From: Branchiostoma floridae
Taxonomy: Eukaryota; Chordata; Leptocardii; Amphioxiformes; Branchiostomatidae
DNA: 64,000 bases
Assembly: GCF_000003815.2 (NCBI RefSeq)
Contig: NC_049996.1
Location: forward strand, 4,351,482 to 4,415,481
Reading direction: 5' to 3'
Part shown: in pieces, positions 1-50,900 of the stretch
Position numbering within the stretch: position 1 is the stretch's first letter
Layout of the letters: every line of letters begins with the position of its first letter
Position numbers and translations under genes: made by a program
The notes under the pieces: generated by a model
What the model saw: the letters and a program-made list of their open reading frames with translations, nothing else
Database searches by the model: none
Told to the model about the DNA's origin: nothing

Positions 1-262
1 CTAAACTGAGTATTTGAATGACAACTAATTTGCGTTGGTAGAATCCATTGTTGCACAGTAAAACCCATGGTGAGTGTTTCCTTATGTTGGAACAAAGCTC
101 ATGTAGTTAAAAACTTCAATATGGATTACACCAACACACCCAGATGGAACTTTCATGCTAATAAACTTTGTTCCAACATAAGGAAACACTCACCATGGGT
201 TTTACTGTGCAACAATGGATTCTACCAACGCAAATTAGTTGTCATTCAAATACTCAGTTTAG
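1..262. repeat. Perfect 97-bp inverted repeat (fold-back element)
   Basis: Positions 1-97 are the exact reverse complement of 166-262, around a 68-bp loop. The left arm starts at the window edge, so the element may extend further. Each arm ends towards the loop with CTTATGTTGGAACAAAG, preceded by GGTGAGTG; the same tail occurs in the inverted repeat at 6338-6582. Perfect arms imply recent insertion or gene conversion. Confidence 0.9.
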
Positions 263-1123
263 TCTTATCATAAACTTTGCAACATGAAATCTGAGATACA
301 GATATAACCGTAAAACCATTGCTGTCAGAATACAACGTATGATGGAATTATCATCAAAACAAAATAGAGCACGTTTAGTAACGAACATTTTTCTATTCTA
401 TAACAAGGCCGCCTTGACAAGGGGCTATTTGTTTATAAAACCTCAAGTTTATGTGTGGATGTAATCTATGAATCACAGTCAAAGCTGCTTTAAAATAGAT
501 TGTGCATTTACTATTTCCTTTTGCTTTGCTAAAAGATTACGTGCAACAAGCCAAAGCTGGAAGTTCTTGAATGTAAGTTCATCTGTGACGGTAGTCAACA
601 ATATCTTACAATTTTAAGACTTTATATCCGTGCACAAAATAAAGCGTTTACCGGCAAGCTTTCGATCTGTCTTCTGATCCTTCTCAAGTTGAATTGACTT
701 AAAGCTGAACGTACTTAAGAGACTACAACATGCTACAAAAAGGATACATGTATAAAAACAACACCCGGAGTGAAGGCAAACGAACGTCTGCTTTGAAATA
801 CACCCGAAAGTCGGAAGTTAAAGTTAAAATGGCCACTTCTGCTCTGTCGTTCAAGAAACTGCTAGGAAACGGTAATCACTGCAGACCCCTGACCTCCTGA
901 CCCGGCACTAACTTTGATTAATGAGTTACGATTTTGATTTATGTTTATGTATATATTGTTATTTTGGTTTGTTCACTGTTCAGTTTATCTTATTTCTTTT
1001 TTATGCTATTTTGTGCATGTTATTCTCTACAGGGCATGCATGGAAAGCAGTGCGCAAATTACTGAGTGTGTCTACCTTGTATAAAGAAAACAGAAATAAA
1101 TAATAAATAGAATGACCCCTGAC
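263..1123. other. Phospholipase intron, no feature recognised
   Basis: AT-rich intronic sequence between the last visible phospholipase exon and the fold-back element. I see no coding exon on either strand. Confidence 0.5.
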
Positions 1124-4100
1124 CTTCTGCAGGGCCCTGATGTAGCCCTCTTTACTGCTGGGCCCCCTCAGCTGGTCCTCCAGAAGGTACGTGTTGTGAG
1201 AAGACGCGATGAAGTAGTGACTGAGCGGCTGGGTCATGTCCTGGTATACCTGGTCGTGCGCGTGATTATAGATGTCGCCGTCCTTCGACTCCAAGTACAG
1301 GGTGAAACCTGCAGAAAAAGTAACCGGCTCATTATGGTATTGCACCCAGGAAACTGCACGGAGTTGCTTCGACTGGTAAAAGCTAAGGGCACACCCCGAC
1401 GTAAGTAAGTGCAAATACGTGCTATCTACGTGCCAAAACGTGAGCAATCTTTCGGGATCCGTAAGCGGTAAGTACCACCTCCGTGAGTATCAGGCAAAAG
1501 GCACAATTTGCTTATATAAATCCTTCTACTCAAGTTAATTAAATTTGGTTCCCAAGAAAACAGAGTGAATGGAAAGAGTTGATAGACTATATCGTGTCAT
1601 ATGAGCCATACCTTGCAAACTTAATGAATCTCTCGCCTTGACGTCATCGATCTGTTCATACGTGTTGATGATCCTCTTGCAGGTTTCTGCATCTGCCTGT
1701 ACCTGTACGAGAGAGGGTACATAATCAGTATATATAGTCAAGTCAAAGAAACTTTACTAGCGTAGCAGACTTCATGTAGCATCATGACATGATCTGAAGT
1801 AGTCGCTAAAAGTACAGTATTTGATATAAATCTGTTAACATTACGGACAAAAATTCCTGAATTCCTATGCGCTACATTTCAAACATTATCTAAAATACAA
1901 TATTTAAATAGTCATTGATTTAAAAAAATTACAAACAACCATGCGGTTGGGCGAACATTGAACATTGTGTCTTGATTCAAGAGCATTGTTATGAAGAATG
2001 GTTTCTTCATAAAGGAAGGATCTTTTGAGTCTTTCAGCTCTGCATTTCGGAAGTGTACGGTGGTTGGACTTTCGTAATGTATAATCATCACATGCATGAT
2101 GCAGGGGTGCTTTGTCTCCTGTAGATGCAAATATCTAATTTCTACAGAACAAAGTCGGAGGAAGAGCCAATAAGAAGTCCAAACTCTTCAAATTACCTTT
2201 TGTTCCTGCGTAAGGAACTTGTGCAAGTCCTGCATTGTCAAAGTCCCTTGAGCCGAGGAGACCCTGAAGGTGAATAAAAAACATGTCACTTATCACGAGG
2301 TCTGTAAATACAATGAAACGCAGCTAAAAGTGCCTCGTAACCCTTTTTTTCATTAATAGTCAGAACATGGCAGCAGCCAGCTACATGTACTTGGAGGCCC
2401 CGGGTCCTGGCCAGGGTATCTCATTTAGGACTGCAGCGAATATCGAAAGAGACTTAGATTTAAAATGGGGGCAACGTGTTCGAGCAAGTTAAAGATTAAG
2501 GCCTAGCAATACCTCCCTATAATGAATTGATTTAATTAGATTTATTCGGCCGTATTGAAAGATGCAGCCAGGTCTACTGCTATTAAAACAGTTTAGGTGC
2601 ACTCTCACTGCACTTGCGTCACTCTTGCGTCACTGCGGGGTTCGTAAACATACTCACGAATTTCAGAGATAAAGAACGACCTTTCTTACTTTCTGTGTAT
2701 TTTGTCGTCTTCTAAGTCATACTTTTACGTATTACGCAATATATAAATCATAAAAAATAGGAGAAAATAACAAAACAGTGACACAGTGAACGAGCCCCGT
2801 AGTGACGCAAGCTTGAAGCAAGTGCAGTGAGAGTGCACCTTAAGGGAACCTGAGCACTGCCAAATTTGTCACAAGGGGACGACTGAACATGATGTACAGC
2901 ATAGTTGTTTCCTCATAAACTAACACATATATTACATAATGTTACCTGTTGAAGAGATCCTCCACCTCCTGACGGAAGGTCAGCTGCCTGTAGAGCTGTC
3001 CGAACTCCTCTAGGTCAAGGTCACCGTTCCGATTTTGATCCACTTCCTGTAGGTCATCGGACAACAATGAATTAGCATAGAACAACGAGTAATGACAATA
3101 GATTTTTCAAAAACAAAAGCATTGCAAGTACAAACGCAAACGTTCTGAAGCGAGAACCATGTTGCATGCTTTACGCCCAACATATAGACAAATATTCCAT
3201 TTAATATCACACAAAAGCAAATACACATAAGATAAATTTTAGTTTGAAAAGCTGAAGAAAGTTAAATGTTCTATTAAACACCCCCCCCCCCCCCTATGTT
3301 GTTATATAATGGCAAGTCAGGCATCGAAAGCTCTTGGTAATGGAATGAATTGCTATGAAAGAAAAAGGTAACAACCCCTACTCAATGAAGCTGATTATGC
3401 AATACTGAGTTTTTGAGACGTTCCCTCACCGTTACCAAAGAAGAAGGTGCAGAAGAAGGCCCAGCACCCGTTTCAAATGTTCTGTAAGGCTTTACTTCCA
3501 TATTACTACCCTGCACCAACTTATAAAGAAAAGCCGTACACAGTAACCAGGTTTCTAAAGAGACTGGTTGCTGAGTACAACGGTCGTGGCGAAAAAGAGA
3601 TACATTACAATCACCATACCAATGGTACGTGCGGTGACATATACGAGGGGGGTTCAATAAGTTCTTTGCCTCACCAAGAAATAACAAGCACAACTCAGAT
3701 TTTCAGGCACAACTTCATAGTATGAAGTCTTTTATCAATATCCTCCAAATTACAAATCATTGGAGTCATTACTTTCCAGGCATTCGTTTTTTCTAAATTA
3801 GAAGGTAAGTGGGGAGAAAAAGAAGGGTGAAGTGTGATCAGACAATTTGACCTCACACCTCAGGTTGCAGATCAATTGTCCACCTTTTTTTTTCCTTATC
3901 CTTTACCTAACGTTACTGGGTGTCGCCTGCAACATGATGATCACAATAATTTGAATTTTGGTACACATTTATATAAGACTTTATACATGTACGTGGGGTT
4001 ATCAATAAGTCCCCGACTTTACCGAGAAAAAATAAGCACAGCTCAGATTTCGAAGCATAGATGTCAAGTATAAAGTCTTATATAAATATGTACCAAAATT

Positions 4101-7100
4101 CAAATTAGTGTGATCATTACTTTGCAGGCGACACCCAGTAACGTTAGGTGAGGGAGAAGGAAAAAAACGTGGACAATTGACCTGACCTGAGTGTGTGGGT
4201 CAATTTGCGCTGCTGGAAGTTNNNNNNNNNNNNNNNNNNNNNNNNNNNNNNNNNNNNNNNNNNNNNNNNNNNNNNNNNNNNNNNNNNNNNNNNNNNNNNN
4301 NNNNNNNNNNNNNNNNNNNNNATTTTGACAACGTCTTTTGTAATTATGGCATGGGAAACTAGACCCACACATGTCTGATCACAATTCACACAAATTTTTT
4401 CTCGCCACTTACCTTCTAATTTAGGAAAAACGAATGCCTGGAAAGTAATGACTCCAATGATTTGAAATTTGGAGGATATTGATAAAAGACTTCATACTAT
4501 GAAGTTGTGCCTGAAAATCTGAGTTGTGCTTGTTATTTCTTGGTGAGGCAAAGAACTTATTGAACCCCCCTCGTACGTAACAGTGGTGACATATGCGGTT
4601 AACAACCCCAACCGTTTGCTTACCTCCTCATATTCAGATCAAAAGAATATTAATTATCACAAGAAAGAGATCTGTATTTCAAAGCCATTCTTAGTTTTTA
4701 TGAAGTGAAAAATACTCTTCTTGTCACATTTTTACAAGTTCTATCCTGGTACAATGCACTACTCAAAATAATGTGCAAAATGTAACAATTATATGCACAA
4801 GCATATTTCAGAAGAAACCAAAACGAGAAGAGGAGGCTGGAGGTTTGGAATGAAGTACAGTATAGCCTTAGAATAGTTCTCCTTTCCAAGTATGAAATAT
4901 GAATATGTAGATGTAACCTCATACCTGGAACCTCTCCTTGATATGAGAACTGCTGATTGGTACGTTCATCTTCTTCAGCAGGCTGGTCGCCTCCTTCAGG
5001 TCCAGCCGCTCGTTCTGGTTCTTGTCGGCAGCGTGAAAGAACTCTGATATCCATCTGTATAAAGCCATAGATAAGCATCTTGAGTAGATGGATTCATGTA
5101 AGAGATCATTCTTAAAGAAATGTATACTTACTATGGAAAGTAAATCGACAGTTTAGAGAGCAAGTATCAGCAGCAAGCTATCTGCGATAATGTAAAAATA
5201 TTGAATGATAAATCTAATTTGGGGCACAATCATCTTGGGCACGTTCAGTTGCTTAACACTGAAGCGGACTACTTTGTGACGGCGTGGAAGAATCCCATTT
5301 ACATCAAGTCCATCCACAATCCCACAGTTGTGATGGAGGGGATAGAAGCAACCAGGCACCTGTGGCCCACTTTTGCACTTAAAAGTCACGTGCCCAAAGG
5401 TGTGGGTCAATCACCATGAAGATGACCTTAAAGAGAACCGAATTTTCAGTATATTGAATTTTGTGTTGTGGGGGGGGGGGGTATTTAGAGCGACATAAAT
5501 CATAGTAACAAGTGCCCACAAGGTACTAAATACGGATACAGACTGGGTGATAGGAGCCCCTTAGCACCATGATGCTTTGAAAGACAGGAGTACATCTATC
5601 CTCAACATAAGTAAGAAAGACTTATCAATAAAAGAACCCGTAACTAACCTCTCCTTCTTGTGGACGATGGTCTCTCCTGTCCGGGACTGTATGAGGTGTT
5701 GGATCCCACGAACCCAGGTCTGTGCCGTCTCAGGGCTGTTACATATCAGGTCCAGGGTGGGCTGTAGAAAACAAGAAAGGCAATGATTGGTAACGTCCAT
5801 TGGTTAAAAACAATGGACATCGATGCATCAAAGCAATGAGTATACTGTATATTAAAATAATTGACACTAACCCACCAGGGTTATACACGTAATTGGTATC
5901 GAGATGGAATAAATCAAACATGTATAAGACTCAATTGATCGTATAGTAGTTTCTCGAAGGGAACGTAAGAACTACGCAGTTCCTTACACAGGGTGATAGA
6001 TACTGGCAGTATCTTAATGAACGTACAAGCGCTACACCAAAATCAACAAAGGGGATAAATGGTGAGCATATAGTCAATGATATTTTAAGAACTTACAGTC
6101 TGATCTTTATATGAGATGCTGAAACAGTTGGATGGTCCGACAGCCTTCTCCCTGTCCACACGTGAACTCCGTGACGTCAGCGTGCTCAGAAACACCTCCA
6201 ATATGTTGGATACGTCATCTGTAAGATTCAAACAGGTCAATAAGTCATTCTTCTCTCAGCCATGATAGAAAACAGGTTATCAACGTCAACAAAATGTTCG
6301 GAATGAAAGCTCATGTGTGTTGGTAAATTCCATAGTGAAAAAGTTTAAACTTTGTTCCAACACAAAATGAAACTCACCATAAATTTTCGGCCGAAGACTT
6401 CGACCTCCGAAGACTTAGACTTCGACCTTCGAAGACTTCGACCTTTATGATTCGCTGCTACCTGACGTCATCCAACAACTTCCGGATTAGTGCAGCGAGT
6501 CTTTCATCTGACGAAGGTCGAAGTCTTCGGCCGAAAATTTATAATGAGTTTCCTTGTGTTGGAACAAAGTTTAAACCTTTTCACTCAACAAAATGTTGTT
6601 TTTATTAGATGTAACAGATGTGTGTGCCTTCATTTGTTTGTAAATGTGTGTATAAACTACTATACAGTAGAACTGAGTATTGACATACAGTTCACAAAAT
6701 AGGTATAATACAATGTACACAGTTAGTACAAAGAAATCAAAGGGCACTTCAAAAGGTGATTTATAAGGTGGTGGTGATTATTCCGAAGGCTCAGAAGGAC
6801 AGTGACGGTCTCCTCAATTTGTACCTATGCTCGATAGGCCTTAATCTACAGGACAAACGTGAATTGAAAAACAATTGTTAAGAATAAGTTTATTTGTCAG
6901 AAACTGTAACATATTGTTGCAAATCCAAAAATGTTAGGAATTCCTTTTTCTTGATGAGATGATTGCTCTGATTGGTGACCACAGTTTGCGGATGCTTGAA
7001 AGGTCTGCACCTGGTTGGCTATTGGCTGACCAATCCTCGTTGTTCAAACTTGCTGCGTCATGAGATTTTAGCTTAATACATGTGATTATTAATTGCAGGC

Positions 7101-11529: not shown

Positions 11530-11723
11530 GGGGGGTGGGGGACCACATCGGCCACATGGTGGTGGTGGATAGTCAGTCCTATAAGGGGCAGACACACTCG
11601 ACCACAGTGGTCGCAGGGGAATGCTTCGCCGAGGGCCTTGGCCACGACGGGGCGGTTCTTTCTTCTGCTGCGTTTCTCCTCTACGGATCTTCTCGAAGGA
11701 GGAGACTGACTGGCGGCTTATTC
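11530..11723 (-). pseudogene. Older LINE C-terminal remnant that served as insertion target
   Basis: Reverse strand reads EAFPCDHCGRVCLPLIGL followed by four His, a C-x2-C...H motif resembling the GRVCxSRIGLxSH end of some LINE ORF2 proteins (recalled family pattern). Upstream VSSFEKIRRGE lies in another frame, so the remnant is frameshifted. The part inside the target duplication reappears at 14436-14560. Confidence 0.5.
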
Positions 11724-14102
11724 CAGTCCAATGATCCAATCAGGCCGCGAGATATCAAACACCTGTTGTCCAAGAAGAAATCCAAGTCGGCACCTGGCCC
11801 GGACGGAGTAGGCTATGATGTCTTTAAATGCCTCCCTGCAACACACCACTTCCTCGCTACTCTTTTCAACAAGACCATGAGCCAAGAGCAGCCATGTAAG
11901 TCCTGGCAGGCTGCAGATACCATCAGCATTCACAAGTCAGGACCTACAGATGATCCAGCCAACTTTCGATTGATTTCATTGATTAGCACCACTGCCAAGC
12001 TCTATCACTCAATTCTTGGTAGCCGCATGATGGATTTCTTCGTCAAGAATGGATTCATCGACAGTGAAATACAAAAGGGATTCCTGGAGGGAGTATCGGG
12101 TTGTGTTGATCACTCATTCGTACTTAATGAGATCATCAGAAACGCCAGATCCGAGAAAAGGACAGTTCACGTAGCATGGTTGGACCTTCAGAACGCCTTT
12201 GGCTCTGTTCCACATGACCTGATCCACTTAGCACTACAGCGGTACCATGTACCACGGCATGTATGCAACTACATAAAGGCATTCTACAGTGATCTAACTG
12301 CTCAAGTGAGATGTCCCGACTTCTCTTCGGACCCCTTCCAGTTGAGAGTTGGTACGTTCCAGGGGGACACGCTGTCCGTAGCGATCTTCCTACCGGTCAT
12401 CAATCTTCCTCTGGAATACCTGCGCACTGAGGAATCACACGGCTATCAGTTAAGACACAAAACCCACATGCCCTTCGCATTCGCTGATGACCTGGCACTT
12501 ACCGTATGTAGGTCACGATCCATGCAGCGGATTATCAACACACTTGACCAACATCTCCGAAGTATCCACCTGACACTGAAGCCGAAAAAATGTAAAACCC
12601 TCAGCATCTGCAGTGGGTACGCCAAGGACATGTCTTTCTCAATCGGGAACCATCCTATGGATAATATAATCACATCCCCCTTCAAGTTCCTGGGCGGCTA
12701 CATTTCTGCTAGCGGGTCGTCAGGTCCTGTCTCGGACATCCTGAAGGAGACAATTATCGGGTCCAACACACAACATGGGATCATCATGAACGTGGATGCC
12801 AGCCCTGTACGTGGGGAGTACAAGTGTGAAATGTACAGGGTGTACATCCAAGGTGCCATCAGGTACCTCTTGACTGTTCACGATGTGTCCAGAACCCAAC
12901 TGCATGAAATCAGCCATAGTGTCACGCAGTACCTTAAGAAGTGGGCCAACATGAAGAAGTCTTCTGACCCGGGCATAATATACCATAGTCAAGGGCTAGG
13001 GCTCTCATCGGTCCAACAACTCTACATGCAACAACACGCCAACGTAATGGCCACTGTTCTAACGTCAGGTGATGACAGCGTCAGAAATGCCCTCGACGCG
13101 AAGGTCGAAAGGGAATCGGCATTCACGCGAAAGTCCACAGGAACGATGGAATGCTTTACCATCGCCGAACAAAGCCTAACAACATTGCGTGATGATGACA
13201 CTCACGATCAAGCAAACTCCCAACAAACAAAGAAGAAATTGTGCCAGGCAATCAAGGCCCGCTTACAAAAGGACAACGACAGTAAGATTGAGGAACACAG
13301 TAGTACTCTCAAAGTACAAGGAAGATGGACGGAACTAGTTGAGATAGAACAAACTGACATCAGATGGAGAAGCTCTCTGTACAATGCCCCGAGGGGAGTG
13401 TTCGAGTTCGCGCTGAACGGGATGACGAACTGGTTACCAACACGGGACAACTTAGTCCGCTGGGGAAAGCTGCTCTCAACAAAGTGCCCATTATGTCAAG
13501 GCCATCAGACCCTTCGCCATGTTCTCAATGCCTGTCCTGTGGCACTGACAGCCAGATACACATGGCGACACAACAGTGTGCTTAAGGAACTGGTTACGAC
13601 ACTACAAGGATGGTACTCCCTGTCTGATCCGCCGGTTACCATACGCTGTGATCTGAGTCCTGAACACCATGAGGGAGGGACGCACATCACAATACCCCCG
13701 GACATTCTACCTACACCACTTGTACCTGACATTACAATACAAAACTCAGCTCAGCAGAACTTGACTCTTGTTGAATTGACTGTTCCTTTTGAACAAAATA
13801 CCCAAGCAGCAGTAGACAGGAAAATGGCCAAGTATGAACACTTGAAGGAAGACATATACCTACATAGTAACTATAGTTCAACTGTCGTCACTATAGAGGT
13901 GGGCAGTAGGGGGTGGGTCAATAGTGATAATGCTAGAAAGCTGAGATCGCTATGCCCTGCAGCTGTACGCAATAAAGACGCCGAGGTCAGAAAGCTAAAG
14001 CGACGTCTAGGTCAATGCGCTTTGTGCTCCTCCTACGCAATATATTGTGCGAGAAACACCCCTGTGTGGGAGTCCCCATCTGGGTTATTCTCTACCAGAT
14101 GA
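11535..14102 (+). CDS. Reverse transcriptase plus restriction-like endonuclease ORF, 855 codons, 5'-truncated
   Basis: Copies element RNA into nicked chromosomal target DNA (target-primed reverse transcription, family knowledge). Reverse transcriptase blocks in order: SAPGPDGVGYDVF (about residue 91), NFRLISLIST, WLDLQNAFGSVPHD, VGTFQGDTLS, catalytic FAFADDLAL (about residue 315), KFLGGYIS. Near residue 650 is CPLCQGHQTLRHVLNAC, the C-x2-C-x7-H-x4-C motif that precedes the endonuclease in R2-like elements. Near residue 731 PDITIQ, ELTVPFE and KMAKYEHL match a PD-(D/E)XK restriction-like nuclease. About 63 N-terminal codons come from the flank and target duplication by chance, so the ATG is not native; N-terminal zinc-finger/Myb domains of full-length relatives are missing. 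The reading frame is intact, so the insertion is young. Confidence 0.92.
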   Translation: MGDHIGHMVVVDSQSYKGQTHSTTVVAGECFAEGLGHDGAVLSSAAFLLYGSSRRRRLTGGLFQSNDPIRPRDIKHLLSKKKSKSAPGPDGVGYDVFKCLPATHHFLATLFNKTMSQEQPCKSWQAADTISIHKSGPTDDPANFRLISLISTTAKLYHSILGSRMMDFFVKNGFIDSEIQKGFLEGVSGCVDHSFVLNEIIRNARSEKRTVHVAWLDLQNAFGSVPHDLIHLALQRYHVPRHVCNYIKAFYSDLTAQVRCPDFSSDPFQLRVGTFQGDTLSVAIFLPVINLPLEYLRTEESHGYQLRHKTHMPFAFADDLALTVCRSRSMQRIINTLDQHLRSIHLTLKPKKCKTLSICSGYAKDMSFSIGNHPMDNIITSPFKFLGGYISASGSSGPVSDILKETIIGSNTQHGIIMNVDASPVRGEYKCEMYRVYIQGAIRYLLTVHDVSRTQLHEISHSVTQYLKKWANMKKSSDPGIIYHSQGLGLSSVQQLYMQQHANVMATVLTSGDDSVRNALDAKVERESAFTRKSTGTMECFTIAEQSLTTLRDDDTHDQANSQQTKKKLCQAIKARLQKDNDSKIEEHSSTLKVQGRWTELVEIEQTDIRWRSSLYNAPRGVFEFALNGMTNWLPTRDNLVRWGKLLSTKCPLCQGHQTLRHVLNACPVALTARYTWRHNSVLKELVTTLQGWYSLSDPPVTIRCDLSPEHHEGGTHITIPPDILPTPLVPDITIQNSAQQNLTLVELTVPFEQNTQAAVDRKMAKYEHLKEDIYLHSNYSSTVVTIEVGSRGWVNSDNARKLRSLCPAAVRNKDAEVRKLKRRLGQCALCSSYAIYCARNTPVWESPSGLFSTR

Positions 14103-24262: not shown

Positions 24263-27200
24263 ATGAACAGATACACGACGCTCATAACGGTGGTTGCATT
24301 AGCGGTGGTGGCGGCGCTAGTCCCCGTAACCAGTGCCGGCCAATGTGTGGACGCCAAACCTGGCGCTAACTTCACCAACGAGCGCTACTACGGGCTGTGG
24401 TACGAGATCGGCAAGGTATGAGGGCATCTTTCCCACCCAAGAAAAAGAAACGCTTGGACGTTTTGTGATATGGTTATTCTTTTTCAATAGATCGAACATT
24501 GGTATAGAAACTGCATTTGCCTAACACGAAACTTACTAATCTATTTCACTGAAAAGAATTTCTTTTATATGAAAAAAATATCATGACTAGAAAGGCCGAC
24601 ATTTGCTTGAGAGCAAATACAGCATATTTCAGCCATCTCCTTCCCCAAGCAACAATGGACTATTCCAAAATCACCCATGTGCAAAAATGGAACTCTTCTG
24701 CTTAAGATGACTAAGCATCCTAAGCTACTAATTACACGTATGAGCAAAAATGAATCGTAGAACCCCCTTCCCTGCAAGAATGGACTCAAGTGCACCCAAT
24801 GTAGAAGGGTAAGATAGACCAGTCCAAAAACACTTCCGCTAAGAAATGGAATTTTGAATCATCAGCCGTCCAAAACTGAATTTGAAAGAAATCCCCCCCC
24901 CCCTTTGCAAGAATGGACTCTACCTGTTATACCCCTGTGCAAAGTGGAGCGATCCAAAAATACATCCGCTAAAATAGGACTTTGACATAATCACCAAAGT
25001 CCAGAAATACATGGCCTTTTCTATAATAAGCAACCCAGTCCAAAACTGAATTTTTTTAATAGTCCCCTGTGCATGAATGGACTCATCCATATTACATCAG
25101 GCTTGCTGATTGGCTGCCGAATCCTCAGGTACAGTCTTCAGGTGGGGTCAAGTTCCATTCAACAAATGGAATTCGGAATCATCACCCATGTCCAAAAATG
25201 AATTTTTTAAAAATCCCCCCTATGTGCAAAAATGGACTGTCCCAGCAGTAGCCTTATGTCAAGTGGATCAGTGCAAAAACACTTCCGCTAAAAAAAGCAT
25301 TGGCATTATCACCAAAGTCTTAAAGTAAATTTTAAAAAACACCCCCCTTACCAACAATGGACTCTTCCAGCAAAATAACCTTGCTCATTGGCTAATAATT
25401 AATTAGATTTACCTTGTCCCCCCAACCACCTGGAGGAACATGGACTAGGTAGGTATGTAGATGATTGGATCTACCAGAAACACCTGTGGCTTCCAGAATG
25501 ACCTAGAGGTCGTTGACCTCGGCACTTCCACCTCACAAATCCAAAATTCTCCCACAAAAACCTCCATAATGAGCCATTTTGAAGTGATTTATACCAAATA
25601 TTATGCATGGATCCTTTGAATAAGTACCTAGGGCACCTCTGTGCTAAATTTCAGGTCATTTGGATGTAATACCATGGTACAGGGGGCCTAAATATAAAGT
25701 TGTGGTCCAAAAATTGCAATAAAACCTCAATAAAATCATTTTAGAAGCAGATATGAATAAAATGAAAAAAACACCTAAGGGTATTGGCCCACTCTACCCT
25801 TGTGCCAAATTTCAAGTCATTCGGTCCAGGAACGACGGAGTTGATTCGATTTGAAGATTTGACAGGAGAAAGAAAGAAAGAAAGAAGAAAGAAACATTAC
25901 GAATACAATATATTTCACCATACCTATGGTATGGCTGAAATATAATAAAGGTATGTATTGACAATGCCAACCACTGTGATACGATGCTAAATAGTCTCTT
26001 CTCTTTGCGTTTAGATGAGATCAGACTAGTTATCTCAATTAACAGACTGCAGTACATCCTGCTGAAGCTAGGTGGCACTGTGATATGGTGACCATTCATT
26101 TTCAAGTTCATTACTTCTTGTAGATTTAAGCCTAGAAAATCATCCAAGATGATCCTTTGTTGTTTGTTGCTGAAAAGAAATATGTTTCATATGGCTACTA
26201 TATAAAGTGCCACGAATGGAATCATTGTGAAAATCATACAAATGGTATTCTGTACCGAAAAGAAACACATGTATTATGAATGTCATGTCTGTTATTTTAG
26301 ATCCAAACGGCCGGAGGGGCGTTCTTTGAGAAGGACTGTGTCTGTACCAACATCGCCATCAAAGCTGACCCTAGCGGGAATGAGGGAGACGCTATAGTTA
26401 CTAACAGCTGTAGGAAGAACACTCCACAGGGAAAATACCTGAACGCTACAGGTAAAAAACACCTGAACATGCACACCTGTCTGGTCCACATGTATCACAT
26501 CTGTACATGTACAACTGTCTGTTCCATAGGTAGCACACCTGTACTGTACACCTGTCTGGTCCACAGGTAACACACCTGTACTGTACACCTGTCTGGTCCA
26601 CAGGTAACACACCTGTACTGTACACCTGTCTGGTCCACAGGTAACACACCTGTACTGTAGACCTGTCTGGTCCACAGGTAACACACCTGTACTGTACACC
26701 TGTCTGGTCCACAGGTAACACACCTGTACTGTACACCTGTCTGGTCCACAGGTAACACACCTGTACTGTAGACCTGTCTGGTCCACAGGTAACACACCTG
26801 TACTGTAGACCTGTCTGGTCCACAGGTAACACACCTGTACTGTAGACCTGTCTGGTCCACAGGTAACACACCTGTACTGTAGACCTGTCTGGTCCACAGG
26901 TAACACACCTGTACTGTAGACCTGTCTGGTCCACAGGTAACACACCTGTACTGTAGACCTGTCTGGTCCACAGGTAACACACCTGTACTGTAGACCTGTC
27001 TGGTCCACAGGTAACACACCTGTACTGTAGACCTGTCTGGTCCACAGGTAACACACCTGTACTGTAGACCTGTCTGGTCCACAGGTAACACACCTGTACT
27101 GTAGACCTGTCTGGTCCACATGTGACATACCTGAAATGCACACCTGTCTGGTCCACAGGTAACACACCTGTACTGTAGACCTGTCTGGTCCACAGGTACC

Positions 27201-28716
27201 ACACTTGTACTGTACACCTGTCTGGTCCACAGGTAACACCCCTGTACTTGTAAACCTGTTGTTGTATACCTGTGCAAGTTCAGGTCAAAAGATTTTTAAA
27301 AAATCATGCTGCAGTACCGCGGGTGGCTTCAAGTTGACCTTCGTCTTCCCAACATCGATCCATATACCAAATATTATTACAAACCAGAGGGGTTCATACG
27401 TTATGCTGACCACAATATATGGAATCACAGATACACACACACACATCAAAAACATTGTCTCAATTTTCGATGGATGTAAGAAGACTTCCCATTCCTGTTC
27501 CCACCCAGCCAAACTGATCCAGGAGACAGTACCAGGGATATGGCAGGAAAGCTTCTTCCCCTTTGCTCCCACGGTAAGTACTTATCCATGCCAAAATCCC
27601 TGTAATTGTAAGTGTACATAGATGAGCAGGCATCTAAAAATACCCACTATCATTTACCTGTGCCCTGATCATATTCACAATTCAACTATCAATTTTCATT
27701 AATCTTGATATGACTAATGTTTGACATGATTGTTACATTCTGGACCAATGTTTGAACTGTCATTTCCAACACAAAAATTGGACTCACCCAAAATTTTCAA
27801 CTGTCCAACTTGTCTTTGTCAAGGAATGAGCAATCCACTGCCTCAACAGACAGGGGACGCCATAGGCTTTCTGTAACTTATGACCCACTGCTCACCAACC
27901 GAGTCACCTGTTGTATCTGCATTATACATGACATCACAAAAAAGGCAGAATGCTAATTCCTTGACAAAGACTGGGAGTTGGACAAACATTTTAGAAATTT
28001 GGATATGTCTGGTTATAGTGTTGGAAAATCCAGTTCAAAGTTGATAGAGAATGGCTTCTATCAAAACAAGTCTGATGTACTTTCATGTTTGCATGATCAA
28101 TGCACGTCAAACGTGGTGGAAGACGAAACACATTTTATGTCAAACTGCTCTTTCCACGATCACGAAAGAAAAGACCTGTTTCAAGAGGCCACCAAATTCC
28201 ACCCAAAACTTCCTCACATTCACCGACAAAAAGAAAACAATTCTCCTTCTAACATCACAAAACCCACACATGATAGAAAAGGTGGGATCTTTCATCTTCC
28301 ACTGTCTTCGAAAAAGGCATGGAACCCAATAACCCAGGATCTAGAGTTAGCTTTTACTAGCTTTAGACTAGACACTTGTGATATTGTTTTTACACTGTTT
28401 GAATCTCTTATGTGACCTGCAATTAGCCTACGGGCAACAATTTGCAATAAACTTTATTACATAAACTTTATTACATTCTTCTATGCCTGTCTCCCTTCAG
28501 CAAACCTACACCATCATCTACATTGGAGATGACTATGCTGTAGAGTATGACTGCGAGTCAGTGTTCGGCCTACTGAACTACTGTATCCACATCCTGTCTC
28601 GCAAACCCACTCAGGACCCAGGCCTTACCATGAAGCTCCTCCAGGGTTCCTTAGACATGGGGCTCAACTCGGAGAAACTGGACTACGTACAGACTCTGCA
28701 AGAGGGGTGCTGGTAG
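24263..28716 (+). CDS. Secreted lipocalin, apolipoprotein D type
   Basis: Small extracellular carrier of hydrophobic ligands (family knowledge). Coding exons 24263-24415, 26301-26451, 27509-27573 and 28501-28716 have consensus splice sites and closing phases, giving 194 residues. Residues 1-25 are a hydrophobic signal peptide (VVALAVVAALVPVTSA). The lipocalin GxW signature is YYGLWYEIGK (residues 42-51). Exon 2 carries CVC and NSC cysteines, exon 3 AKLIQETVPGIW and FFPFAPT, which match the AKL...F...P segment of apolipoprotein D, and exon 4 YTIIYIGDDYAVEYDC and HILSRKP, the conserved strand and R of the lipocalin core, ending EGCW. Exon 3 is only 65 bp; its start was chosen for the pyrimidine tract before CCCAG and the phase. 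Intron 2 is filled by a 37-bp minisatellite that begins at the exon 2 donor. Exact ortholog uncertain. Confidence 0.88.
24600..25390. repeat. Degenerate tandem repeat, unit about 130-165 bp
   Basis: Recurring words GCAAAAATGGACTCT, CCAAAAACACTTCCGCTAA and ATCACCAAAGTCC appear in the same order several times in lipocalin intron 1, with C-rich stretches between. No coding potential. Confidence 0.65.
25480..25955 (+). mobile_element. LINE/SINE-type 3' end with terminal hairpin
   Basis: Words such as AATTTCAGGTCATTTGG and AAATTTCAAGTCATTCGG lead to an AGAAAG microsatellite, ACATTACGAATACAATAT, then an inverted pair TATTTCACCATACC/GGTATGGCTGAAATATA. This AGAA-ACGAATACAAT-hairpin layout recurs at 3' ends of repeats in several invertebrates (from memory). 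No ORF remains. Confidence 0.55.
26452..27260. repeat. 37-bp minisatellite, about 21 units, each with a splice-donor consensus
   Basis: Unit CACAGGTAACACACCTGTAC plus 17 bp ending TCTGGTC. The first unit contains the true exon 2 donor (CTACAG|GTAAAA), so the array grew from the exon/intron border. Later units are nearly identical, with a TAGACC/TACACC variant. The period is not a multiple of three and the reverse strand lacks stops in all frames, giving three overlapping spurious minus-strand ORFs of 252-315 codons. Confidence 0.95.
27745..27990. repeat. Inverted-repeat remnant related to the 6338-6582 family
   Basis: TTCCAACACAAAAATTGGAC, then CTCACCCAAAATTTTC, match the arm tail at 6356-6400 (TTCCAACACAAAATGAAACT, CTCACCATAAATTTTC). 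GTCTTTGTCAAGGAAT (about 27812) is complemented by ATTCCTTGACAAAGAC (about 27956). Probably a decayed Penelope-like terminal unit. Confidence 0.55.
27978..28470 (+). pseudogene. LINE 3' coding remnant in lipocalin intron 3
   Basis: An open stretch encodes CTSNVVEDETHFMSNC and FHDHERKDLFQEATKFHP, the C-terminal zinc-ribbon-like end (C...EDETHF..C) common after LINE reverse transcriptases. The 3' end is GCAATAAACTTTATTACATA. No reverse transcriptase core remains. A second copy lies at 23680-23895. Confidence 0.7.
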
Positions 28717-33185: not shown

Positions 33186-36100
33186 CCCTCCTCCACAAGC
33201 TTAGGTCTGAACTCAAACACCTCACGTCCTGACACCTGTCAATCAAACATCAACAGTCAGTACTTGGCTATGTGTTTTTGTGTCAATCATTGTATTGATG
33301 TCAACTTTGTCAGAATCCCAGATGTACAGACAGAAAATATTTGAGACATTTCATTTCACTGGCGTCATGCGTTTTCTGTGTGTTATACTCTTACCATGAG
33401 GGTCTTGCCAGATTTGAAGTCTGCCTTCTTCTTGGCCTTGTTGTCTTCCAGTTTTTTCTTCTTCTCCTGGATTTTCCTCTTCTTCCATGCAATGAAGGTC
33501 TCCAGAGTTACCCTGGTGGTGTCTGGACCTAAGGCAGCTCTCTATAGTATAGGCAGAGGGAATGTAGAATCAATACACAGAGAAACTGTGGAGCCATTCT
33601 AACATACGGTAGAATTCTAAGTATTAAAAGTCAAGTAGCAGGGCTCGAAATTCATTTTTGGGATTAGGTGCACTGGTGCACCCAGCTTAAAAAATTGGGA
33701 GCACCAAAAGTTTTTTGGGTGCACCACTTAAATTTAGTAATAACCTAACAATAAAACTTCTATCAAACTCTTAAACAAGTTTCATAACAGACATTTTTAT
33801 TATCTTTCTAACACTTGGATGTCAAGAATATGATGTATACTAGTATACTTTGATACCTTTACATACATAAACATAAGAAAATATTTGGGTGCACCCACAC
33901 AAAATAATTGGGTGCACAGCTTCAATTTTGGGTGCACCTGGGTGCACATACACCCAGTATTTCCAGCCCTGAGTAGTAACAGTCAGTCACTCACATATGC
34001 ATGTACATGCTCATCTTAAATATTTCATCTATCTAGTCTGAGTATCTAACCATTGGGGCACCATAGAAAATTTCACAGCCAGTTTTCTCCAACCCTCTTG
34101 GTTGTTTGGTTCTTCCTTGGTTCTTTTTCTCAGTGCTTCATTTAAAGCCATACTGTACTCCAGAGGAAAGGGTTCCAGTTCTGCTAGTAATATTTTTCTG
34201 AATCCCAAAATGTAAATGTATCGACCACTTGACATTGAACCTGGACAAGGGAGCAGTTGCATTATAAAGCATCAACCCCTTCAAATACTGTAAATGCAGA
34301 AATGTTCGCGGTGGATTAATGTTTGCGGTTTTCCCGGTGACCACTTCACCGCGAACTTTAAACCACCGCGAACATTTTTCTATCATGGTATTAGACTGCA
34401 GTCTATGGTGTTACCGCGAACTTAAAACCACCGCGAAAAGTCCTTTCCCCCGCTACCGCGAAATTAAATCCCAGCGAACTTAAATGCATTTACAGTACCC
34501 TCCAACCTACCCTGACAGTGACATGTGGTCGTACCTCTTCTTTTACTTTATCTTTAGAATGCAAGTTATCTATAAGTTATAACTAATCTGTGTGCAAATT
34601 TGGCACCTTGCACAAGTTACATAAAAAAAACAAGTTGATGTGGGTTTGATAGCCAGGTGAACTGCCATTATTTACTAAAAATGATGACAACCTACCTCTC
34701 TCTCAATGAGTTCTTCCAGTGAGATCTCGTCCTTCTTTTCCAGCTTGTTTTCCTTCTTCTTCAGCACAAATCCAGGCGGGAGGGCGTGTCTGTAGATACA
34801 GGACTCTCCGTTGGGACAGCTCCAGAACCAGCCATACTTCTCCTGCTCTATAGCTTCCAGGAAGTACTTACATACCTACAGGGGAACATGTACAATACAC
34901 ATTGCCACACTTCTCTTGTTCTATAGAACCTGACCACTCCTCCTGCTCTATAGCTTCCAGGAAGTACTTACATACCTACAGGGGAACATGTACAATACAC
35001 ATTGCCACACTTCTCTTGTTCTATAGAACCTGACACACTTCTCCTGCTCTATAGCTTCCAGGAAGTACTTACATACCTGCAGGGGAACATACAGAAAATA
35101 CATTTCTACAATATACTTCCCTTAATCTTTATAAACTGCCACACTTCTGTTATTTTATAGAACCTGCCTCATTGCCTCTACAAAACCTGTTACCAGAGTT
35201 GTAGCCAGCCTGAAATCCTTTTCCATCCCCTTGATTTTTGAAACCTGTTGGGCGTCCAAGGTGCAATGCTCCTAGGGGTGTCCAGGAGCGTGCTCACCTG
35301 GAAAATTTTGAAATCTAGACCCTCTGAAATGCTGTTTCCTTCATTTTGAGGTGTAGATTTTGCTGGTAGATGAAGCTGTTCAACAGCATCTGTTTTGTTA
35401 AAAATTACACAAGGGAGATATTATATCTTTACATACAGAATTTTGTCCATCACAGAGGACGGGATGAGCAAAATGTTTTTCTGTCCCCCGCTGCAAAATT
35501 CCGTCAAAGGATGGGTGCTGGCTAGAACCCTTCTTGTCACACTTAGAACTCTTGTTCTAAAGAACCTGTCACACTTCTTTTGTTCTATAGAACCTATCAT
35601 ATTTCTCTTGTTGGTCTACACTATATAGAATCTGTCACACACTTCTCTTCATCTGTAGAATGCTCCTCTTGTTCTACAGAACCTGTCACTTTCTATTGTG
35701 CAATAAAACAAGTCACTTTTCTATTGTGCAATAAAATGTGTGACTCTTCTACTGTGAAATAGGACTTGCCACGTTTTTTCTTGTTCCATGTATGTTTAGG
35801 AACTCCATCCACACTGTTGTACTTACAATCTTGGTTTCGTTGCCCTTCTTCTTGTCAGCTTCCCCATGTTTCTGGTTCACCACCTCCTGCAGTTTGGCCT
35901 CATCCCAGTTCTCCATAGTGTCTGAGGAAATAACCAGATAATTACACAGATACTCAAGGATACTACACATTTTAACTTGATATTGGATGTGCAGTAAACA
36001 TTTATCTGCATGGAATTGGTAATTTTTCACACAATTTGACATACATGGGTTAATACAAAACTCATACAAATAATGGCATCAGCAATCTCCTGACATGCCC

Positions 36101-44946: not shown

Positions 44947-47900
44947 ATGGCAGACAAGACAGTTCTTGTAGAGAACAAGGATGTGGCCTCCTACTTCACT
45001 ACTAAACACTCATGGAGGGGCAAGTAAGTGTCTAAAGAAGAAGGGAGGGGGGCACACTTATGTATTATAGATATCACATACATGTTATATAACATCAGGG
45101 TTGTCAAGGTACCAGGAATTTTTCACAGTGTAAGGGGTAAGTGTACTCCCCTAAAAAGTTTAAAATTTACCACTGAAACACTATTTCCTGTATTTATTGG
45201 GCTATAATTTATGAAATAAAGTCAAAGCTTTCAACGTTAACGTTTCCTACAAAACAGCACCCGAGCGCTGGCTTGAACAGTGGGCATGCCACCTGTTCAA
45301 AGATACAAATGTACATCCACAGAAAACATGTAATAACCTGACTGGTCCATTGATGAGGTTAATTCCTTTTCTGCATATTGCTAATGATTACACAAACTGC
45401 ACATTCTTTGAAGGGCTAAGGACTGTTCATTAAAACTAAAAGTGATTTGTTTGTATGAAATTAAAGAGGTATTTTGATTTCTAATTCTTGCCAGTTATCT
45501 GTGTCCCCAGTTGTAGGTAGTCCTTTTGGCAAGCCTACATATTTGTTGGATGTTAGCAATTAGTATGTACATTTGTATACTTAGCCAACCCATTCTGTCA
45601 GTAATGTGTCTGTGACTTTCATTGATTCAGGTACAAACGAATCTTCTCTGTGGGCACAAAAGGCATCACCACATACAACCCACAGACTCTGGAGGTCACC
45701 AACCAGGTACAGTATGTCTAACATTGGACGCACATGATGTCACGTCTTCAGGGATGTCTCCAGGACCCGTCCTTTTGTCTTGGGACTAGGGCTGGGTACC
45801 GGTACAGAAAATTCAGGTCCATGTCCGGTTCAAGTCCAGAGGATCAGGTGCAGGTCCGGACCCGAACCTGGACCTGATTCAGTATGACCAAGGAGGTTGA
45901 AAGAGGCTCCTTGGTATGACTCATATCAATGGTCCATTTCACTAAAAAGAAATCTGTTTGGTGGAGTATTAGACTCATACTGGCGTTTTAAAATCCTACA
46001 ACGCTAACTGCACCTGTTCGATTGGCTGTAAAACTTGGTAGAAATTACTATAAACTCTATTCTACTTCACACTTGTTATTTTCTTCCACCTACAAGTGCC
46101 AAAACGTGTGAATGCCTGATGAAATAATGTGTTAATTTTCTAATCGGTCCAACATTCTGGACCGGTCCAATAAGAAAAACCGGTTTTGTACCGGTACGCT
46201 GTACCGATACCCAGCCCTACCTGGGACAGAAATTTGCTTCAGAAAAAGAATTCACCCTATCCATCCCCAAAATTTTAACTTAAATGACATGAAACTGATG
46301 ATAATAGTGTGTATGTTCCTAAGCTTGAAGAATGACAGATTTAGCAACAAAAATTCATAACATTGTCTCCCAAACAATGAGTGGGACACACAGAAAAAAA
46401 TTCAAAACTGGAGACAGCATTACTTGTCTTGTATTGTAATATTCACTTCCATGAAAATTGTCTGGTAGTATTAGTTTTGCTAGGAATGTGTGTTTGCTTT
46501 TGGCGCTATATCTCCCCAATGCTTTGAGCTATGGCAATATGATTTCATATTTGGTACATGAGTAGGTATTGTTGACCCTATAGTCAAGTATATTTCTAAA
46601 CTCCTACTGGCTGACCTTGGTAATGCAGCAAAACTTTATGTTTTTGTATCTTCAGCCATGGACATGTTATGGTCTGGATTTTTAAAGTTTTTTCCTTCAT
46701 GTTTCTGTTTCTGTGCTATATTAGTATATATATATATACCTTACCAATAGGTGTTGCCTGCAACATTGCACTATTTAAAGACTCAATACGATATAATGGT
46801 TTGGGCTTCGTGATGTTTATCATAAAGTATTGCTTAGCAAGCATAGATTTGGATGGCTTTCCCCAGCTCTATAATATGATTTTGGTACAATGTGGTTTAC
46901 GAGTCCAGGATTGTGAGTGTCATGAATTTTTGATAGTAATGTTGGCCATTTGTTCATCTTTTCTCCAACCCCATCTGTTCGTGTGGACAAAAGGGCGGAT
47001 CAGTCTATTATTACCTGAGGGGGGAGCATAACCCTCACCTCATATTCCCTTGGTGTTGTTGTTGTTAGAGTTTTTCCTGTTGATTGGTACAGCTATATTT
47101 TAGAGGGTACTAGTACATGTATCACTGGCAAAAGACATTGGATGGTTGTCAGAAACATCTGACTGTTTTCAAAATCATGTCCAGTTGCTTGTCGAGTAAC
47201 TGCTTTTTAGCATATCTTATTACCTGGATGTCTAAACTTCATAACACATATACATGACATATATTTTTGTATGTTTGTAGCGTATAGTATAATCACCTTT
47301 AGGCATAATACCCCACTTAAGTAGTATGTATATGCTGCAAAAGGCCCACCTGTATAAGGTTTGATACTGAGTTAAGTAAAGGAAATAAGAGTAAAAGGCA
47401 TTCCGAAGGGCACAACATTGATTTGAACCCTGCATGGGATTTGAACCCTGAACCTTTCAACCTTAACTTTAACTACCTTAACTGCTAGTACTAGATCACC
47501 TTGCCATCTTTGTGTAGGAAATTTTCCCAACCATTTACTGTTGGAGTATGTTGACCCTGTATGTTGAACCTGTGGGTTCATGTGGAGTAACAACAGGGTG
47601 TTCGGCCTAGAACCCAGAGGTACCGGGTTCCAATTCTGTCATGCTATTGATCTTGTGCCCTTGGGAAAAGCACTTTTCACAATTTTTCTTAGTCCACCAA
47701 AGTGTAAAAATGGATGGTACCTCAGGGTTGAACAAGTTTTCTAAAATCCACTTGTCCTATCGGGCAAGCAGATAAAAAATGTACTTGCCCAAACCAATTT
47801 TTCACTTGCCCAAAATTCAAATGTCACTGTTACTAGTATATGCATTTTCACTTCCAGCAATGGAATTCTCTGTAGACAATTGCTTGATGTCATGACTGTA

Positions 47901-50900
47901 AAAAGTAACAAGTATATCAAAATTGTACTAAAATCAATGGAAAAAATCTTACTTGCCCGATCGGACAAGTTGGGTAGGACATGCACTTGCCCGAACAGCA
48001 CTTTCACTTGCCCTGGACAATAGGGCTAGTGGACTTGTTTATCCCTGTACCTGACTTCGGTTGGGGAGGTAAAAGGCAGTGGAAGGAAAGGGATTGTCTC
48101 CCCCTTCCAGTACAATGCCCAAGTCACAGTGGATAACAACCCACTACGGCCTCAAAAAGATTATGGGACTACCTACAATACATGTTGATCTTATGTTTTC
48201 CCCCCCCTCCTCCCACAGTGGGCGTACTCGGACTTTGTGAGCATCCTGCCCAGCCCCAAGGCAGCGAGCGAGTTCATCATCACCATGAAGAAACAGAACA
48301 AGAAGAACGACAGCATGCGCTTCTCCACGGATTACAGGGCAGACCTTATCACCGAGGCACTGGTTAGTGAGCATAGTCTTCATTAGTACCTGTCTATCTT
48401 TATAACCGGTATAACCGCCGTTCGGCGTAACACACCAGCTTCGCAGGCACGCAGCACGGCAGCAGCTGGTTATATTACACCAAACGACCTGTCACACCTA
48501 ACTTTTGCTATCTGCCCACACACAAAAGCTTTTCATCATATGCTCTTAAATTACAAAGTTCTCTGGTCACATCTATAGTCATGCCTTGTTACTTGTCAGC
48601 AGGGCTTTAGCCAGCTCGAAATTTTTTTCCGTCAGCCAATTACAATCGTCGCGAAAAACGCGAAAATTAATTAGAAGGACTGAACTGAGACCTTGAAAAA
48701 CGGGTTTTAATGAGATTATCATATGCGAAAGGGCGCCGACACACATTGTCAACAATCATAACAATAGCAAAACAAACAGTGTGTGGCTTTTACGGCCGTG
48801 GACGGCGTCCCCAAGCCGCCTGTAGCTTCCACCAAGGATTTTTTTGTCCGTCAAGGTTGACAGATTGGTTTTAAAATTTTTCCGTCAGACGCAGCAAATT
48901 TCCGTTGACGGAAAAACGGACGCTGGCTAGAGCCCTGCTTGTCTGTCAGTAACTGTGTTTAACTAGGAGCATGCAAAATGTACATGCATGGCACTATCAT
49001 TCTTGCCTCAATCAAAGACACATTCCATACATGGAAAGAAATGCACTGTACACAAGATACGGATTGAAGAATTGAAGTGATAATGTTTTCTATGCTCGTG
49101 TGATATATTGTATTGTTTGTTTGTTTGTTTATTTTTTATTGTAGTAAAACACAGTGTTTGTTCTGTTTTACAGAGATTTAGAAAGCAGTTTGCAGACTCA
49201 AAAGCTCAGAGTGAAAAGGTAGGTGGCCATCCTAAAACATCAAGCAACATACAATGTAAATCTGCGCATTGAATTTTTAACAATTTAATGGTAACTTAAA
49301 GGTATAAGTCAAGGTTTTCTTAAGATAAGTATTGAAGACCTTTTTGTTTCATGATCTTGATATTGTTATATTTGTATTTCTGCAGAGGTTCAATGCCTAC
49401 AAACACCACTGGAGTGATAACAGGGTACAGATACTTCTGGAGGTGAGTGTTTAGAGTTGGGAGTAAGATATATCACTGTATGTTCTATTAGTAGAGTGAT
49501 CTAGAAAAAAACATTGTACTCTTTATGCTGTTGTTTTGACAGACAGGCTTGCCATTTTGTTAGTCTTTTTGGTTGCCTCAGTCCAGGGTACTGAATTGCA
49601 TAACATTTATGAAATTGGTATTAATTTTACAAGGAAAACACGAATCACTATGCAAAATTGTAGAAATTTTATGGTCTTTAAAGTCTTATGGGATATGCAC
49701 AAATTACTAATATTTATAGATGTGAAATACACAAATCTTATTGAATTTGCAGTCTTTCATGGAAACTAGCCAAGGGTGATTCATGCATATCCCCATAGAC
49801 TTGTATGGTTTCGGAGAGTGAATCATACATTTTCCATGAAATTTGTATGAATTTCACAAAGTTCTTGCTTAGGCACCTCTGCAGTCACTGATACTCTGAG
49901 TCACTAGCTCTTCTGTTTAAGATACTTACTGTAAATGCATTTAAGTTTGCAGAGATTTAATTTCACGGTAGTGGGAAAGTGGACTTTTCGCGGTGGTTTT
50001 AAGTTCCCGGTACCACCATGCACCATGCACTCTTACTGCCATGGAAAATGTTCGCGTTGGTTTTAAATTCGTGGTGAAGCGTAAAAAACGCGAACATTAA
50101 ACCACCTCGAAAGTTTCTGCATTTACAGTACTGTAACAGCATTTCTGTGCAAGTTATGATTTTCTTTGCATGATGATATTTAAAAATAAAACAATTTTAC
50201 TGCCTGTCCTGTCTCCAGGTCACCGCTGGGTCATTGAACCAGGTTGACCCTGCCACCAACAAGGTCCTGTGTTCATATGACTATAAGGACATGGAAGGGG
50301 TAATTGAGGTGAGGGGTCTTTTGTTTTGCCATCCAATCTACATGTACGATAAATGGAGTTTACATTGTTCACGTATGTTTGCAAGGGTTTAATCTTGAGC
50401 TAGGGAGAACTTGTGTTGCAATGTTGATTTTGATCCTTGGTGCATATATGATTCTTGCTTCAAAAACTAATGGTAATGCACTGCACAACCTAAGTTTAAA
50501 ATTACTGGTAAGTTGCACTAAACAAAATATGATTGCACAACACAACTGGGCAACAAAGTATTTTGATCTCAGGCTAGTTGTTGATAAAAGGGGCATTCCA
50601 CTCCAGAAAGGGGTGGTGTTTTCCAATAGATAAATGTGCCAATGAATACATAATCAACCAAATTTTGTGGAATTCACATTGCGCGATGTGTGTTTTGTAA
50701 AACAAATTATGACACTCACTAAACCCATGCAAACCCTACCCATGCATTCCCTATAGACACTTTGTTTATCATAGTACATACTTTCGGAATAAATGAGGAT
50801 CGCTAAGCACACCGAGAAGGCAAATTGCTCATAAGATTGCTCATTTATTACTTCCTAAAATTAATATCTATCAGAAAATAACACTCCCGTGTGGAGTGGA

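Follow-up and report, generated by a model that had tools for sequence, protein, structure and literature searches.

The inverted repeat at 6286-6597 poses two questions: what kind of element left it, and whether the hammerhead-ribozyme-like motif that it carries is, or ever was, a ribozyme. The window in what follows is the whole stretch of 64,000 nucleotides of Branchiostoma floridae DNA that was analysed, and positions are those of this stretch.

Anatomy of the palindromic insertion and its relatives

The inverted arms are confirmed by two overlapping segment pairs, 6334-6365 with 6554-6585 (97% complementary) and 6362-6409 with 6512-6559 (90% complementary), and the 261-nt strand folds with an MFE of -129.5 kcal/mol as against -51.0 in shuffles. 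The arms proper (6334-6409 and 6512-6585) belong to a larger unit. An exact 13-bp direct repeat, TCAACAAAATGTT, occupies 6286-6298 on the left, 35 nt outside the left arm, and 6585-6597 on the right, where it adjoins the arm end; 6286-6597 is a single insertion with this target-site duplication at both ends. Among 1500 random placements outside tandem repeats, a duplication score of at least 11 was reached in 6 and of at least 13 in 1; under a simpler null that included tandem repeats, a score of 11 was reached in 11 of 572. The space between the left duplication and the left arm is filled by a one-sided tail of 35 nt (6299-6333, minus strand), which belongs to the left-pointing arm, reads outward as ATGGAATTTACCAACACACATGAG... 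and is identified by the tails of genome relatives. The left pLTR arm (6334-6439, minus strand) points left and is without CTGANGA, its stem II region being an expanded short repeat, and the right pLTR arm (6491-6585, plus strand) points right and bears the hammerhead-like motif. Between them the centre of the palindrome still reads, in frame, a PLE-like C-terminal peptide: 6440-6490 (plus strand) holds the last 16 codons and the stop of a Penelope-like element (PLE) reading frame and resembles the ends of the endonuclease frames of relatives.

The palindrome has at least 91 matches in the 513,431,437 bases of its own genome (the best 40 of 357 candidates were scored), many genomic places yielding one match per strand, and 34 regions were retrieved around the best places. 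The duplication test covered 13 arm pairs, the search pattern having found one arm only in the other 21 of the 34 regions. All 13 pairs have a one-sided tail that begins ATGGAATTTACCAACAC... or close to it, as judged by eye from the ends. A duplication of 10-17 bp accompanies 11 of them (10 exact, one with one mismatch) and sits 31-37 nt off on the tail side in these 11; of the two pairs without a duplication, one lies in a region (L152) that ended too early to judge. The outer ends stay constant across arm-to-arm spans of 217 to 1301 bp. The longer interiors encode a ...SYIGETARSLRTRFMEHKRR... frame that ends like the peptide at the window centre, and some relatives encode the end of a PLE protein with a GIY-YIG-like endonuclease and the same terminal peptide as in the window. 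Searches with the frames of this first family gave zero Pfam or PHROGs matches and nothing relevant in the PDB; its longer candidates L205 and L206 are N over much of their length.

Penelope retrotransposons are described with a tail of 30-40 bp on one side, pLTRs in inverted, head-to-head order and duplicated target sites (excerpts of PMC3846280 and PMC11167929). The palindromic arrangement, which a preliminary description from the letters alone could not place, thus finds its match in the described head-to-head pLTRs with one-sided tail and target-site duplication (excerpts of PMC3846280). The Penelope of Adineta vaga shares inverted pLTRs, truncated inserts, a duplication and a 31-bp tail at one end; its duplications are of 8-10 bp, whereas those of the amphioxus families are of 10-17 bp (excerpts of PMC3846280). 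The word "hammerhead" occurs 0 times in PMC3846280. The guess that the element was Penelope-like has been upheld by the genome copies, with their PLE frame ends, one-sided tails and duplications. We are highly confident that 6286-6597 is a decayed, non-coding PLE insertion of the GIY-YIG type in which head-to-head pLTRs, one of them tailed, meet where the reading frame ends. Its anatomy, its family, the conservation of its core and its linkage to a PLE reading frame are matters of direct observation. An odd eukaryotic palindrome is therefore an identifiable trace of Penelope-like transposition. Element and motif are of a known kind, and the two families described here have not been matched to a named one.

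A further palindrome at 1-262, with arms of 102 nt that are 98% complementary, shares with the 6286-6597 insertion, in a different order, the tail sequence and an arm segment, GGTGAGT...TTGGAACAAAG; the tail (6299-6333) is similar to window positions 14-51 and 112-152. It is probably another insertion derived from PLE ends.

The hammerhead-like motif and its conservation

The whole motif (CTGACGA with an additional A, a 7-bp stem and GAAA) lies at 6508-6536 on the plus strand. It is preceded by the 5' strand of stem I, CTTTCAT (6501-6507), and consists of the core CTGACGA (6508-6514, with C3 U4 G5 A6 N7 G8 A9 all present), the extra A at position 10 (6515), stem-loop II with 7 bp and a 3-nt loop (6516-6532), and GAAA (6533-6536, with G12 A13 A14 at 6533-6535), which opens the cleavage-site region at 6533-6543. 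A15.1-U16.1 and H17 are present at the cut site, which reads GAAAAUUU in the window copy. The motif departs from the type I hammerhead in two places: the extra A stands between A9 and stem II, where the rule is zero insertion, and stem III falls short, two nucleotides standing between A15.1 and U16.1.

In the window the composite of CTGANGA, one extra base, a stem of at least 5 bp and GAAA is found at three places (6508 and 57415 on the plus strand, 60490 on the minus strand), as against a mean of 0.05 and a maximum of 1 in 200 first-order Markov sequences; the motif with one extra A thus recurs beyond chance. The same composite with 0, 2, 3, 4 or 5 inserted bases is absent from the window. 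Relaxing the scan to at most two core mismatches yielded one more match, against an expectation of 1.8 at two mismatches. Taken by itself, the closing stem I of the window copy is less strong as evidence (P = 0.021 relative to random 5' flanks).

Conservation was assessed in 45 segments, namely the BLAST matches in the 34 regions that span the motif (matches that do not span it were dropped and left uncounted). The core was located by a required A and the GG after it; all 45 segments passed, with none lost, and all 45 carry the extra A. CTGANGA is intact in 41. Stem II keeps its 7 bp in 36, and 42 have a stem I of 4 bp (CAU/AUG and a U-G pair), with the putative cut after GAAAAUUU. A hammerhead core leaves position 7 alone free, and this is the sole core position that varies at 15% or more (T in 31, A in 10, C in 4). 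Of the remaining 13 core columns 0 vary to this extent, as against 10 of the 111 that lie outside the motif; the resulting P of 0.0008 against random columns is indicative only, because the 45 copies are related and neither columns nor copies are independent. Of the ten that vary, five belong to the final nine columns of the arm, the least certain part of the alignment.

The relatives also bear on the place of cleavage. The preliminary description had stem I close at UA (6542-6543) followed by AUGAG, which pairs over 5 bp with UUCAU ahead of the core. This UA|AUGAG site is found in 0 of 45 relatives, which read ATGGTGAG or differ from it by one place; one relative does have AUGAG, preceded by UG, which does not qualify as a cut site. 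The cut site of the first family probably lies 3 nt upstream of the one first proposed, with a stem I of CAU/AUG plus U-G, so the putative cut in the window copy would come after 6540 (GAA-AAUU-U) in the family register and after 6543 in the earlier one. Two G-to-A differences from the relatives break the family-register stem I of the window copy, leaving 2 bp, and the 5-bp register stems from those same two differences. The genome-wide comparison that had been suggested thus gave a divided answer, with conservation of the core but not of the stem I pairing in question. What stands is the central claim of a hammerhead-type core in a mobile element: its parts lie where they had been placed, the composite exceeds chance and the core is intact in most relatives.

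The Rfam search that had also been suggested returned zero hammerhead matches, both in the whole window at the gathering threshold and, at E up to 10, in four short stretches that included the intact second-family motif described below. A canonical hammerhead was rejected on the outcome of these searches. In MFE folds of both window copies stem II is formed and stem I is not. The window copy is very likely inactive, with stem I broken in the family register, no core in the partner arm and a long palindrome that would sequester the motif. Intact copies of the family may well cleave, a prediction that we favour somewhat.

A second family and the extra A

The minus-strand composite at 60490 belongs to a second PLE insertion (60363-60633, minus strand), with a duplication at 60363-60376/60619-60633, arms at 60405-60621, a one-sided extension of 28 nt at 60377-60404, and a motif whose core runs from 60490 to 60484 with the extra A at 60483. 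BLAST gave 28 rows for this family; its arms were recognised by AGAAGCT, required without change ahead of the core, so that copies altered there are uncounted, and 28 of 28 arms so found have the extra A. The cut-site segment GAAACGUA is present in 26 of the 28, as is ACGU after GAA; the self-complementary ACGU would suit a stem III common to two copies. One region of this family, L177, has same-strand motif copies at 3159 and 537, the ends of a 2.6-kb unit, around two frames. Direct-orientation pLTRs flanking a frame are seen here in the second family and were not seen in the first. An L177 frame matches the Pfam GIY-YIG family PF01541 weakly (E 0.0019, 18.9 bits, against a curated cut-off of 22.6). 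YVDD and GTAMGSPVS were recognised by eye in two separate L177 frames, YVDD in the one that matches GIY-YIG; the reverse-transcriptase profile RVT_1 gave zero matches to these frames at E up to 1. The first-family protein is 40% identical to the L177 frame (E = 2e-75 in a single comparison). The second family is distantly related to the first and has the same anatomy and the same extra A. Stem I pairs within the families despite differing sequences in four of the six arms tested, two being unpaired.

The tails of the second and first families are not significantly similar. A tail common to all families of the window was considered and rejected: B and A are similar (P <=0.001), and D is not significantly similar to either.

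The extra A, which had been called non-canonical, is no peculiarity of the window copy. It is constant in 45 first-family and 28 second-family copies, across elements whose proteins are just 40% identical, and this constancy is the one point that may exceed the literature consulted. PLE hammerheads are minimal variants from which helix III is absent (excerpts of PMC6155905 and PMC7761336), and minimal variants appear in PMC7229834 as well (excerpts). The amphioxus motifs resemble the PLE hammerheads of Lunse et al. 2017 in pLTR location, type I order, lack of helix III and high copy number (excerpts of PMC6155905, PMC7761336 and PMC7229834); the extra A after A9, constant in the amphioxus motifs, may set them apart. 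An extra A10 between A9 and stem II is found in the plus hammerhead of chrysanthemum chlorotic mottle viroid (CChMVd), where it slows cleavage only moderately (excerpts of PMC3705267); this viroid is unrelated to PLEs. In the genome, a hammerhead-like pattern that ends in CGAAACGTH and lacks the extra A has 42 exact matches as against 9 in a backward control. These include several kinds of stem, some resembling second-family copies minus one A, and they weaken an absolute rule of the extra A.

Two distantly related families in one genome thus have a motif that keeps an extra nucleotide rejected by standard filters; PMC3088659, for instance, excluded matches with any core mutation unless activity was measurable. 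Should the extra A prove necessary, a large class of retroelement hammerheads may be escaping present-day searches. A bolder form of this idea is that the pLTR motif is a separate hammerhead subclass, with an obligatory A10, unrecognised by Rfam in the stretches tried and working only as a dimer of tandem pLTRs or when bound by the PLE protein; we regard this as doubtful.

Alternative readings and a model of insertion

An insertion that is short, palindromic and non-coding could be a DNA-transposon MITE with terminal inverted repeats in which the hammerhead-like sequence is accidental, and several other palindromic repeats of the window suit that description. Of the 18 palindromes listed in the window, only two reach a duplication score of at least 11, and both carry the motif; moreover, the extension is one-sided, the duplications vary in length between 10 and 17 bp, and the spans differ while the outer ends stay constant. 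PLE-like protein ends encoded in the interiors of relatives largely refute a MITE, which we consider extremely improbable. An animal retrozyme is equally improbable; such elements are small, tandem and non-autonomous, carry a canonical type I hammerhead and propagate through circular RNA. The type I order of parts, the size of about 250 nt and duplications longer than 4 bp would fit (cf. excerpts of PMC7229834), against which stand the extra core nucleotide, the absence of helix III, and arms that are inverted and, in relatives, enclose PLE-like coding sequence, whereas the tandem units of a retrozyme would be head-to-tail and non-coding.

A PLE pLTR whose motif is not a ribozyme is the more serious rival. 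The series CUGANGAA-stem-GAAA would then be a protein-bound RNA hairpin or a stop/start signal of the frame. The extra A, a stem III of one pair and a short stem I are poor for catalysis, Rfam finds nothing in the stretches tried, the folds give stem II only, and catalytic mutants of the PLE PAc (Poseidon of Anolis carolinensis) left insertion in vitro unaffected (excerpts of PMC11167929). The variation nevertheless obeys hammerhead rules: position 7 varies while other core positions hardly do, the cleavage-site U-H is kept in both families, and stem I mostly pairs within families though its sequence differs between them. PLE hammerhead self-cleavage has in addition been reported (Lunse 2017; excerpts of PMC11167929). 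On this evidence we think a non-ribozyme role unlikely, and prefer a PLE pLTR with a minimal hammerhead-like motif.

PAc too has a hammerhead at the junction of pLTR and frame, one that cleaved only with added protein (excerpts of PMC11167929). Its tail lies in an AC-rich region between two reverse-transcription start sites (excerpts of PMC11167929), and the window tail also holds ACCAACACAC. The PAc frame starts at stem II (excerpts of PMC11167929). The role of PLE hammerheads is still termed a mystery (excerpts of PMC7761336).

We propose that each pLTR of the element originally bore an outward-reading minimal type I hammerhead-like motif, its extra A following A9 and its stem III all but absent, and that the head-to-head structure would have arisen by target-primed reverse transcription with template jumping or self-priming. 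In the steps drawn from excerpts of PMC3846280 and PMC11167929, a tandem PLE transcript would be reverse-transcribed at a nick, starting inside the tail region, where two possible start sites would give ends with or without a tail; template switching or self-priming would produce the head-to-head pLTRs, and repair of staggered nicks the target-site duplication. In tandem full-length elements the motif would cut multimeric transcripts at each pLTR, acting probably as a dimer or together with the PLE protein.

Searches elsewhere and other features of the window

One arm-derived pattern gave 0 matches in viral contigs, and plasmids gave zero matches. The pattern CTGANGAAGG...CCGAAACG met 112 stretches in viral contigs, one with a stem of at least 6 bp, a count that has no null and neither supports nor refutes the reading of the motif.

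The plus-strand composite at 57415 sits in a repeat at 57299-57503 with CTGATGA+A, a stem and GAAACATC, in which stem I was not found; 47131-47251 is a copy of this repeat with a mutated core. A further palindrome, element C (27736-28053), has degenerate cores (CTTGACAAAG) in both arms, stem I pairs of 8 and 4 bp, and no convincing duplication (7 bp). It was left out of the counts for its degenerate core, its unclear duplication and a right arm that enters a frame at 27957-28412. This frame (plus strand, 152 aa) opens in the arm of element C and contains VEDETHF...C; Pfam and the PDB gave zero matches to it.

Among the coding regions, an 855-aa frame at 11535-14102 (plus strand) matches RVT_1 (E 8.5e-22) and, weakly, zf-RVT, and is probably a non-LTR retrotransposon. 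Frames at 1004-1489 (minus strand, PI-PLC-X) and 52672-53016 (plus strand, RME-8 N-terminal family) are probably host gene exons. A tandem array at 26448-27259 is open in several frames. Other palindromic families are represented at 2592-2843/50912-51160 and at 8713-8929/23955-24168/54202-54422, and a four-copy repeat lies at 34286-34497, 49927-50130, 52043-52237 and 62055-62273, three of its copies being palindromes with ends TACTGTAAATGCA...TGCATTTACAGTA.
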